Translations under genes and position numbers: made by a program
In this document: in pieces, positions 13,976 to 42,953 of the stretch
How positions within the stretch are numbered: the stretch's first letter is position 1
Layout of the letters: each line of letters opens with the position of its first letter
The notes under the pieces: generated by a model
What the model was told of the DNA's origin: nothing
What the model saw: the letters and a program-made list of their open reading frames with translations, nothing else
Database searches by the model: none
Assembly: GCA_903896925.1 (NCBI GenBank)
Contig: CAITZM010000101.1
Coordinates: 1 to 64,000 of the forward strand
Source of the DNA: an uncultured Lentisphaerota bacterium
Lineage (GTDB): Bacteria > Verrucomicrobiota > Kiritimatiellia > CAIQIC01
Direction: 5' to 3'
DNA length: 64,000 nt

Positions 13976-14049
13976 TCACAAAATCATGTTTACAAAATCA
14001 TGCCGCCGCATGAGAGCAACCGCATGATTTTGTCGTCATGATTTTGTGA
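13976..14049. repeat. palindromic element, ATGATTTTGT variant (copy A)
   Basis: Two direct copies of ACAAAATCATG on the left (13977 and 13992) face two copies of CATGATTTTGT on the right, ending TGA at 14049. The core between them is about 20 bases. Its architecture equals that of the ATGATTCTG elements at 18126, 18322, 20003, 20199 and 42714, with paired C-to-T and G-to-A changes in the arms. Confidence 0.75.
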
Positions 14050-14223: not shown

Positions 14224-14230
14224 TCCGCCG

Positions 14231-14306
14231 CGACCGGGGTGTCCTCCGCAGGAGGACTGAGATCATACCCGTTGAACCTGATCCGGATCATGCCGGCGAA
14301 GGGAGA
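14231..14306 (+). ncRNA. TPP riboswitch (THI element)
   Basis: The segment carries the conserved TPP aptamer blocks in order: GGGGTGTCC, CTGAGATCATACCC, GTTGAACCTGATCCGG, and ATCATGCCGGCGAAGGGA. These form the P1/P2/P4/P5 parts that bind thiamine pyrophosphate. It lies between a plausible promoter and a rho-independent terminator ahead of thiS, so TPP binding should favour termination and switch the thi operon off. Confidence 0.96.
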
Positions 14307-14315
14307 CGAAATGAG

Positions 14316-14343
14316 AAAGGCCCGGCGCTCCGGGCCTTTTTTG
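14316..14343 (+). terminator. riboswitch-controlled intrinsic terminator
   Basis: AAAGGCCCGG and CCGGGCCTTT pair around a CGCT loop and run directly into a T-tract (14337-14342). It begins about 10 bases after the aptamer and ends 14 bases ahead of thiS, the classic layout for transcription attenuation. Confidence 0.9.
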
Positions 14344-18125: not shown

Positions 18126-18218
18126 GACAGAATCATTTAACGCAGAATCATTGCAGGCGGGGAAAATAAGTCGGCCAGTGAAACTTTTTAAATGATTCTG
18201 CCGTCAATGATTCTGTCG
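18126..18218. repeat. palindromic ATGATTCTG element (copy B)
   Basis: Left end GACAGAATCATT plus GCAGAATCATT; right end AATGATTCTGC plus AATGATTCTGTCG. The core contains AATAAGTCGGCCAGTGAAAC, shared with copies C and E. Confidence 0.85.
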
Positions 18219-18227
18219 ACTCTTCCC

Positions 18228-18256
18228 ATCACTTGAGCGCGCCGCACGACGGATAG
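18228..18256 (-). other. short relic of a gene 3' end (first copy)
   Basis: On the minus strand this reads the last codons YPSCGALK and stop, close to the final codons of the gene at 18703 (YPSRGAN and stop). It directly follows element copy B. Confidence 0.45.
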
Positions 18257-18321
18257 TTCTACTGACAGGACATCGGGTTAGGCTGCGATGCAGGTGCAGT
18301 TCCGCCTGCGGCAGAATTTTC

Positions 18322-18401
18322 GACAGAATCATTTAAAGCAGAATCATTGCAGACGGGGTAAATAAGCCGGTCAGTGAAACTTCTTAAAAATGATTCTGTC
18401 G
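18322..18401. repeat. palindromic ATGATTCTG element (copy C, one right unit lost)
   Basis: Same left end as copy B, but the right end has a single AATGATTCTGTCG. The flanks on both sides also match copy B, giving a repeat unit of roughly 190 bases. Confidence 0.85.
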
Positions 18402-18411
18402 ACTCTTCCCA

Positions 18412-18450
18412 TCACTTGAGCGCGCCGCGCGACGGATAGGGGCCGAAGAC
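18412..18450 (-). pseudogene. relic of the 3' end of a metallo-beta-lactamase-fold gene (second copy)
   Basis: The minus strand encodes TVFGPYPSRGALK and a stop, matching the end of the gene at 18703 (TKTFGPYPSRGAN and a stop). No upstream part of that gene is present, so this is a fragment copied along with the adjacent repeat. Confidence 0.5.
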
Positions 18451-18487
18451 CGTCCCCATTGGAGTCAGATGGCAACCGGAAGAAGCA

Positions 18488-18692
18488 ACCACAGAGGTCG
18501 CAGAGGTAAGCGCCCTTCGACAACGCCCAAGGCAGGAAGGTTCACGGAGGGCAATCGCCACGAAAGCACGCAAAGAACACAGAGCACACCATGTGATCTT
18601 TGTGTTCTTTTGCGGCAAAGTTTTCTTCCCTAGACTGACCTCGTGCCTTGCCCTCTGAGACCTCCTCTTACCTCTGTGGCCTCAGTGGTGAG
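18488..18692. repeat. CCACAGAGG palindromic element, copy 2
   Basis: The left 60 bases resemble the element at 16763. An inner inverted repeat GCAAAGAACACA/TGTGTTCTTTTGC lies at about 18570-18614, and the right end returns with CCTCTGTGGCCTCAGTGGT. Confidence 0.7.
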
Positions 18693-18702
18693 ATCGGAAA
18701 CC

Positions 18703-19953
18703 TCAGTTCGCGCCGCGCGAGGGATACGGGCCGAAGGTCTTCGTGACGAGGTGGCTCTCCGAGGTGTCATCGACGATCACCACGCGATAGCTGGCGCCGC
18801 CGGGGGCGACGCGCAGGACGATATGGCCGTGGTCGCTCGCCAGGCGGTCGATGCCCGGGATCGCCACCCGCGCGTCGGGGTGCACATCGGTGGCGAACAC
18901 CTCACGCGGACCGGGATAGAGCTGCTCCGACTGCAAGCGCTGCCACACGCCCGTCGTCGGATGATGGGCATCCCACACCGAGAGCGTCCAGACCCGCGCG
19001 CTCAACGTCGCGACGAAGAACTCGTTCATCGAGTCCACGTAACCGTGATGGTCCAGGATGGCCGCATCCACGGGGCCCACCGACTTGGCCACGGGAGTCT
19101 CGATGTCGCACCAGGCCGGGCTGTTCTTCCGGATGCCCGGCTGGTCGCCGCCGTTGAAGAATTTGAACGGGCCATAGCTCAGCAGGAACGAGCCGCTGAA
19201 CACATTCTCGTCCGGCCATTGCTTGCGCGGGATGGTCTCCAGGGAAGGCATCCGGTGGTCGGTGTTCGTACCCTGCCCGGTCCAGATTTCCCCGTTGACG
19301 CCCACGTTCCGAAATTCGAACCGGGGGTATTTCTTCGGCTCGCGACGCAAAACCACCTGATCGTTGCGTCCGGGCACGAACCGTTCGACCTGCAAGCCGT
19401 TCTTTGTATTTTGCCAATGCACGAACGCCAGGTAGTTGGTCATGAACGGGGCGGTTGGCTTGGCGGGGTTGGCATAGTCGGGCCAGCCGCGGTCCAGCAG
19501 CTTGCCGGTCTTCAGGTCCTCGACCACGCGGGTGAGGCCGGTGAGGATATAGCCGTGGGGCGAGACGGGCATGCCCGGCGCCAGCTCACCGAGGTGATCC
19601 TGGTGGAAATGGGTCAGCAGCACGTAATCCAGCGCCGGCTGCGGGTCGTGGCGCAGCGCATGCCGGATGTAGCGGACGACCCATTCGCCGGCCAGCCGGG
19701 AATCAGCGGGCCGCGGGGGCGTGTGCTTGGGGTTTTTGGCCGGCTGCTCGCCCGTATCGACCAGCAGCGTGGTCCCGTCGGGGAGGATGTAGAGCCCGGC
19801 GTTGCCGCGACCGGTGCTGATCTGGTGGATGTCGAGAGTCCCCGGCTCCCAAGGCGCGATGGGCTGCCCCACGACATCCCCGGCGCGGGCCACCCACGTA
19901 ACGGTCGACCAAAGACAGCAGGCAAGAAGCAGTCGCATATTCATACTACGCAT
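18703..19953 (-). CDS. exported metallo-beta-lactamase-fold hydrolase
   Basis: A 416-residue protein with a signal peptide (MRLLLACCLWSTVTWVARA) and the zinc motif THFHQDH (His115, His117, Asp119, His120). The preceding strand pattern TTLLVDTGEQ and the later segments SYGPFKFFNGGDQPG and AAILDHHGY fit the ComEC-type extracytoplasmic MBL group, where the GD and H-HG pieces supply the remaining ligands. It should hydrolyse an unknown ester, lactone or phosphodiester outside the cytoplasm. In-frame ATGs exist at 19953, 19944 and 19938, with no decisive ribosome binding site. Its last twelve codons recur twice in the downstream spacer next to palindromic elements. Confidence 0.85.
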   Translation of the reverse strand: MRSMNMRLLLACCLWSTVTWVARAGDVVGQPIAPWEPGTLDIHQISTGRGNAGLYILPDGTTLLVDTGEQPAKNPKHTPPRPADSRLAGEWVVRYIRHALRHDPQPALDYVLLTHFHQDHLGELAPGMPVSPHGYILTGLTRVVEDLKTGKLLDRGWPDYANPAKPTAPFMTNYLAFVHWQNTKNGLQVERFVPGRNDQVVLRREPKKYPRFEFRNVGVNGEIWTGQGTNTDHRMPSLETIPRKQWPDENVFSGSFLLSYGPFKFFNGGDQPGIRKNSPAWCDIETPVAKSVGPVDAAILDHHGYVDSMNEFFVATLSARVWTLSVWDAHHPTTGVWQRLQSEQLYPGPREVFATDVHPDARVAIPGIDRLASDHGHIVLRVAPGGASYRVVIVDDTSESHLVTKTFGPYPSRGAN

Positions 19954-20002
19954 TCTTACGGGTCACCCACGAAAGTCAAGTCACGCTGAGGCAGATTTCT
20001 TC

Positions 20003-20100
20003 GACAAAATCATTGATAACAGAATCATTGCAGACAGCGGGAAGAAGTCGAGGACATCCAACCTAATTATGAAATGATTCTGCCGTCAATGATTCTGTCG
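20003..20100. repeat. palindromic ATGATTCTG element (copy D)
   Basis: Left units GACAAAATCATT and ACAGAATCATT face AATGATTCTGCC and AATGATTCTGTCG. The core differs from copies B, C and E. Confidence 0.85.
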
Positions 20101-20198
20101 CCTCTTCAATTCGCAACTAAAGGTTACGGCTAGTTCTCCTGACAGGGCATGGGCTTGAGCCGCGATGCAGGTGCAGTTCCGCCTGCGCTGGAATTTTT

Positions 20199-20277
20199 GA
20201 CAGAATCATTGCAGACGGGAGCAATAAGCCGCCAGTGAAACTTCTTAAACATGATTCTGCCGTCCATGATTCTGTCG
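20199..20277. repeat. palindromic ATGATTCTG element (copy E, one left unit lost)
   Basis: A single GACAGAATCATT on the left faces ATGATTCTGCC and ATGATTCTGTCG. The core with CAATAAGCCGCCAGTGAAAC matches copies B and C. Confidence 0.85.
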
Positions 20278-42563: not shown

Positions 42564-42953
42564 GTTACCTGCTCCTATGTTGCACGAAGTTGCTGCTCAC
42601 TTAGCACGACCGCGTGTCGCCTGCAAAGCGTATTTTCAGCGTAATTTCAGCGCCCATTCCCGGAGTACACAGGCTTTGGACTGTTTGCCAGCTCCATACC
42701 CACCCATTCTTTCGACAGAATCATTAAGGGCAGAATCATTCTGAGCAATGAAAGAACAGCCGGTCGATTATGGCGATCAGGCAACTTTTTTCGCCTCGAA
42801 CCGGACCACTCAGGAAACGCAACCATGATTCTGCCGTTAATGATGCTGTCGTGCTTGCAGCACCGGATACAACCCAATGTGCCCCGGCCAATTCCAGCAA
42901 GCCTGGTAGTGAAGAGGGCACAGACCAAACGGTCAGCCCACCCGCACCCCGAC
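42564..42953. other. spacer containing element copy F
   Basis: No gene. It holds the palindromic element at 42714-42851; the remaining DNA shows nothing clear. Confidence 0.65.
42714..42851. repeat. palindromic ATGATTCTG element (copy F)
   Basis: GACAGAATCATT plus GCAGAATCATT on the left face ATGATTCTGCC and AATGATGCTGTCG on the right (last unit has one mismatch). The core is longer than in the other copies and different in sequence. Confidence 0.8.

Follow-up and report, generated by a model that had tools for sequence, protein, structure and literature searches.

The stretch of 64,000 nucleotides from an uncultured Lentisphaerota bacterium that we analysed (referred to as the window) contains six small palindromic elements that are built from short units repeated in inverted orientation at their ends (Table 1). 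All six copies named in the initial annotation are present, and both the loss of one end unit in two of them (an inner unit each time) and the core block common to the copies at 18126, 18322 and 20199, namely CAGTGAAAC, were found as described there. The copies are also extragenic, as had been claimed; one ORF call that begins at 42825, inside a unit, looks by eye like a spurious frame. The element at 13976 had been regarded as a variant of the others. It is present but represents a separate family, with 34 half-sites of its own unit CAAAATCATG in the window's own genome. Likewise, the four copies that had been described as a cluster at 18-20 kb are real, but the cluster partly reflects copy-number change of a larger block. 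The flanks of the copies at 18126 and 18322 are 98% identical over 51 bp and the 85 bp preceding the copies at 18322 and 20199 are 86% identical, so that not all three are independent insertions. Two further features lie nearby. A TPP riboswitch (14225-14321) is found a short distance downstream of the second-family element, and another inverted intergenic repeat (ACCACAGAGGTCGCAGAGGTAAG, 18488-18689) resembles DNA in the syntenic intergenic region of the same-genus genome G003.

Table 1. Palindromic elements of the window and arrangement of their end units.
Feature	Position	Strand	Units and core
Miniature element, four units	18126..18218	.	18128-18137+, 18143-18152+, 18191-18200-, 18206-18215-; 15-bp period
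Miniature element, three units	18322..18401	.	Right inner unit lost; core has CAGTGAAAC in common with 18126
Miniature element, four units	20003..20100	.	First unit is CAAAATCATT; core differs
Miniature element, three units	20199..20277	.	Left inner unit lost
Miniature element, four units	42714..42851	.	85-bp core; mismatches in right-arm units
Miniature element, second family	13976..14049	.	Unit CAAAATCATG, 14-bp period

The palindromes are real and occur far above chance. With up to one mismatch, the unit CAGAATCATT was found 20 times in the window, compared to 1.56 occurrences expected and a maximum of 5 in 100 shuffles. The doubled pattern CAGAATCATT-N5-CAGAATCATT (up to two mismatches) gave 101 matches in the 7.2-Mb genome and the reversed pattern none. 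From this genome we extracted 55 distinct copies belonging to several subfamilies, mostly 70-135 bp in length and with all four units in 42 cases. The distribution outside the genome is patchy: G003 holds 30 half-sites, the other two genomes of the genus one and none, genomes of the same family 10-18, and most genomes of the order none. The exact doubled unit was also detected in contigs labelled Lentisphaerae, Kiritimatiellae, Akkermansiaceae, Prosthecobacter, Chlamydiota, Gemmataceae, KSB1 and a few others.

A nuclease gene between doubled inverted ends

In several relatives the inverted ends are spaced 840-925 bp apart. Four of the first five long-spaced copies, which were found by their ends alone, enclosed a homologous ORF; the fifth enclosed an isochorismatase-like gene at the usual spacing (L128, 1142-2062), a possible gene capture. 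The full-length element is approximately 0.85-0.95 kb long and encodes a single protein of about 267 amino acids between mutually inverted ends, each of which consists of two units of about 10-12 bp with a period of 14-16 bp. The general form of the unit is GRCARRANNATT, occurring in the window's genome as GACAGAATCATT and GCAGAATCATT. G003 carries a homologous ORF between CAGAATCATT ends (L105, 4373-5269, minus strand). For the second family of the window, ends with a CAAAATCAT unit flank a full-length ORF at two loci (L145 in genome G042, and L307). The window's own assembly, which is 95% complete, contains no intact long-form ORF.

A search with a profile of the long form identified the ORF in 25 of 388 Verrucomicrobiota genomes (E <= 1e-35). 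Four-unit ends, as judged by an end score, were found around 32 of 34 long-form ORFs, compared to none of seven ordinary short GxxExxY genes and 4 of 1230 shuffles. Regarding the two failures, L237 is interrupted by a contig end and L244 has one recognisable unit. Further ORFs from other genomes passed in six of six cases; five more loci from this search were left out, four being re-fetches of earlier loci and one ending at a contig end. In total 38 of 40 ORFs lie between four units (Verrucomicrobiota, Planctomycetota, Chlamydiota and KSB1), a coupling that carries a search bias since most of the later copies were found by ORF search. The ORF sets tested include bins of KSB1, Gemmataceae, Akkermansiaceae, Prosthecobacter and Chlamydiota. 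When left and right ends were swapped between loci, 171 of 300 pairs still scored because units are alike across lineages. Co-divergence was therefore tested separately by a Mantel test. Unit sequences vary between loci (GACAGAATCATT, GCAAAATGATT, GACAGGACGATT, GGCAAACGAATG, GGTAAAAAGATT and others), and the sequence distance between units tracks the distance between proteins (r = 0.489, p = 0.0002, n = 31).

Some lineages show deviating architectures. At L230, L232, L316 and L317 the units are inside-out relative to the ORF, and at L231 a complete small palindrome lies on either side of the full-length ORF, so that both borders are miniature elements in their own right. At L098 (1726-2015), about 20 AATGATTCTGYCC units follow one another in tandem every 14-15 bp beside miniature and full-length copies; this may be a decoy array or a recombination product.

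By profile, the N-terminal domain of the ORF belongs to the GxxExxY family (TIGR04256 / PF13366 PDDEXK_3), with 75.6-93.5 bits against a cut-off of 35 for TIGR04256 and 82-96 against 22 for Pfam. The catalytic residues D111 (31/31), E121 (30/31) and K123 (31/31) are retained, as are Q135 (31/31) and Y139 (29/31) of the QxxxY motif. Judged by these residues the domain is a PD-(D/E)XK nuclease with an intact D...ExK...QxxxY site, and nuclease activity of the product is predicted from fold and active site. AlphaFold2 models, which rest on 4-5 sequences (pLDDT 80), contain two successive domains with the same order of helix-helix-three strands-helix-two strands. Foldseek searches of the PDB matched the whole protein to Cas4 SSO0001 and other RecB/exonuclease-type nucleases at weak E-values (best 1.9e-3), and the top structural matches of the C half were also PD-(D/E)XK nucleases, again at weak E-values. 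The two halves align with an hhalign score of 25.2, compared to 19.0 for the best of 60 permutations. Lacking catalytic residues, the C-terminal half is, according to the models, a catalytically degenerate second copy of the fold. One might speculate that the two fold units per chain match the two sites per end. The long form differs from ordinary GxxExxY genes by this second copy and by nearly always adjoining doubled ends, which are absent from the seven short members tested. Profile searches of the ORF returned only PDDEXK_3/GxxExxY and no DDE, HUH, serine or tyrosine transposase domain, and searches against PDB sequences, PADLOC and PHROGs yielded nothing informative. No ORF matches were found in plasmids. 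Viral spread of the element was considered and rejected, since IMG/VR contained neither unit pairs nor relatives of the ORF.

Empty sites, deleted copies and comparison with a sister species

Two gene junctions are occupied by the element in some genomes and empty in others. Most sister genomes in which the junction of PNP and CDA can be read have the two genes abutting or overlapping. Exactly at this junction, the full element is present in three genomes; a fourth (G424) has a version shortened to about 130 bp by internal deletion, with the start of the ORF fused to its end, and an end remnant remains in a fifth. Similarly, three genomes have an ELM1-like gene abutting a glycosyltransferase gene, and the site is filled in G077 and G162. 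The abutted empty junctions contain no units. Two diverged elements (L249 and L250) were found in the one PNP-CDA junction, with ORFs 48% identical, differing units and host PNP proteins 89% identical, as if re-insertion or replacement had taken place at one site. Deleted copies also exist in the window's own genome, where a relic (C97:48367-48661) has ORF residues ~25-53 fused to the final 54 and a locus on C168 has kept a middle fragment (residues 173-220). In 18 of 26 full-length elements (a count without a null) the stop codon of the upstream gene lies 18 bp or less from the outer unit, so element insertions persist near the ends of genes, through either targeting or selection. Target-site duplications, which most DDE elements make, gave no signal in 38 own-genome copies.

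In G003, which is syntenic with the window (87-91% nucleotide identity between genes), five of the six sites have no copy (13976, 18126/18322 and 20003/20199). The intergenic DNA of G003 at these loci is rearranged and does not represent clean empty sites, which concern full-length elements of other families. A joined-flank search for empty copies of a 113-bp subfamily in the own genome gave no clean empty site, because the subfamily is embedded in a modular intergenic repeat, and copies of this repeat without the palindrome have rearranged interiors. Modular intergenic repeats with GTAG-containing, REP-like hairpins (GTAGTCCTCACGCTCCGCGTGAGG) occur at L204, L205, L207 and L213 and have blocks in common with the DNA around this subfamily.

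The initial annotation had read the palindromes as mobile and non-autonomous, and this reading gains support from the same ends flanking a one-gene element in relatives, from the deletion intermediates of the own genome, and from the sister-species comparison together with the empty sites elsewhere. In their features the palindromes resemble MITEs derived from insertion sequences, multi-copy elements that arise by internal deletion of a one-gene element with both ends kept (PMC10969869), and intermediates are available here. The window copies are short and gene-less and have their ends in common with a full-length element, the autonomy of which is presumed; internal deletion itself is seen in the C97 relic and the G424 copy, not in the window copies. 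In contrast to such MITEs, the parent encodes no DDE, HUH, serine or tyrosine recombinase and target duplication was not found.

A candidate mobile element and competing explanations

The coupling of ORF and ends, the parallel divergence of units and protein, the two empty sites, the deletion intermediates and the differences between sister species together suggest that the window palindromes are quite probably miniature, internally deleted, non-autonomous derivatives of an IS-like, nuclease-encoding mobile element. The link of the window copies to this element is given by their ends and by other own-genome copies, and descent of their cores from the ORF is presumed. The mover, which the initial annotation had left open, now has a strong candidate in the GxxExxY ORF, and we infer that the nuclease itself performs the movement. 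Its product would bind the paired units, bring the two ends together and cut there, and the excised or copied DNA would be inserted without target duplication. Insertions would survive for the most part where genes end or at stop/start junctions. The miniatures would keep the binding sites and depend for their movement on an intact copy elsewhere that acts in trans. On balance we lean towards bacterial mobile elements of a new class. Their whole transposition enzyme would be a lone two-fold RecB/Cas4-like PD-(D/E)XK nuclease recognising doubled 15-bp-period units that co-evolve with the protein, and miniatures would spread from them in trans.

Other explanations have to account for the same ends. 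A regulatory RNA hairpin or a transcriptional element serving the host, the former also suggested in the initial annotation, would fit palindromic, intergenic copies that are frequently close to gene ends. However, neither spacers nor units covaried between the arms of 38 own-genome copies, spacer complementarity was 0.474 within and 0.486 between elements, Rfam had no match on the window copies and the own-genome loci scanned, and copies are missing from syntenic sister loci, which makes a host function of this kind extremely improbable. The arms are complementary because each of them holds the same site, and the ends look more like sites bound by a protein than like a hairpin or an RNA module. 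Absence of covariation, and thus of a hairpin as the conserved feature, also speaks against REP/REPIN-like elements moved by a Y1 (HUH) tyrosine transposase. The RAYT system does comprise one gene with short inverted repeats and many small, non-autonomous, palindromic inverted pairs between genes (PMC2817692, PMC3116915, PMC3733652), and six Y1_Tnp genes as well as GTAG-type repeat modules are present in the genome. But the search proposed in the initial annotation, for a Y1/REP transposase gene flanked by the same ends, found no doubled unit near any of the six, and a different gene, encoding a PD-(D/E)XK and not a HUH/Y1 enzyme, is reliably flanked by these ends. REPs are defined by a GTAG or CGTC tag on the hairpin (PMC3733652); the doubled 15-bp-period units lack GTAG, and CGTC occurs in some right-arm spacers without being conserved. 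We therefore consider this origin very improbable.

Two further explanations accept the full-length element and assign another role to its gene. If the long-form GxxExxY gene were cargo or a passenger, an unlinked enzyme belonging to the host or to a different element would move the ends. In keeping with this, L128 has an isochorismatase-like gene between its doubled ends, and genomes rich in miniatures can lack the ORF (G000). Yet unit sequence tracks ORF divergence as for a cognate DNA-binding protein and not for cargo, and of the five long-spaced copies initially recognised by their ends alone, four carried the ORF. A passenger role appears rather improbable. Alternatively, the gene might encode not a true transposase but a selfish, homing-like nuclease that cuts DNA and is copied in by host repair, the doubled units being binding sites that serve in regulation, protection or end recognition. 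A nuclease fold that is not a known transposase, the lack of target duplication and the two diverged lineages at one PNP-CDA junction, as if sites were re-used, would all be in agreement with this. The element occupies many unrelated target sites without a visible common sequence, however, and the abutted empty junctions have no units, unlike a homing site split by an intron. We regard homing as possible yet unlikely, and prefer transposition by the nuclease.

The enzymes known to move transposable elements in prokaryotes fall into a few classes (DDE, HUH, serine, tyrosine and Cas1). PD-(D/E)XK-fold nucleases tied to DNA movement, as in the proposed element, include Tn7 TnsA and the Rpn-type putative transposases. 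TnsA needs the DDE transposase TnsB, and Rpn is a different PD-(D/E)XK family. In the open-access PMC literature we found no description of a nuclease-only mobile element with GxxExxY/PF13366, and mentions of GxxExxY and of PF13366 there are few, one of them incidental. The family appears to be poorly studied, and its link to a mobile element is, provisionally and as far as open-access PMC was searched, new. The many pairs of protein and unit with differing specificities make DNA recognition directly testable. If the proposed element is real, a simple element with a PD-(D/E)XK nuclease as its only gene would constitute a further class of transposable elements, a role would be suggested for some members of the GxxExxY family at least, and a palindrome family that occupies intergenic DNA of PVC bacteria would be explained.
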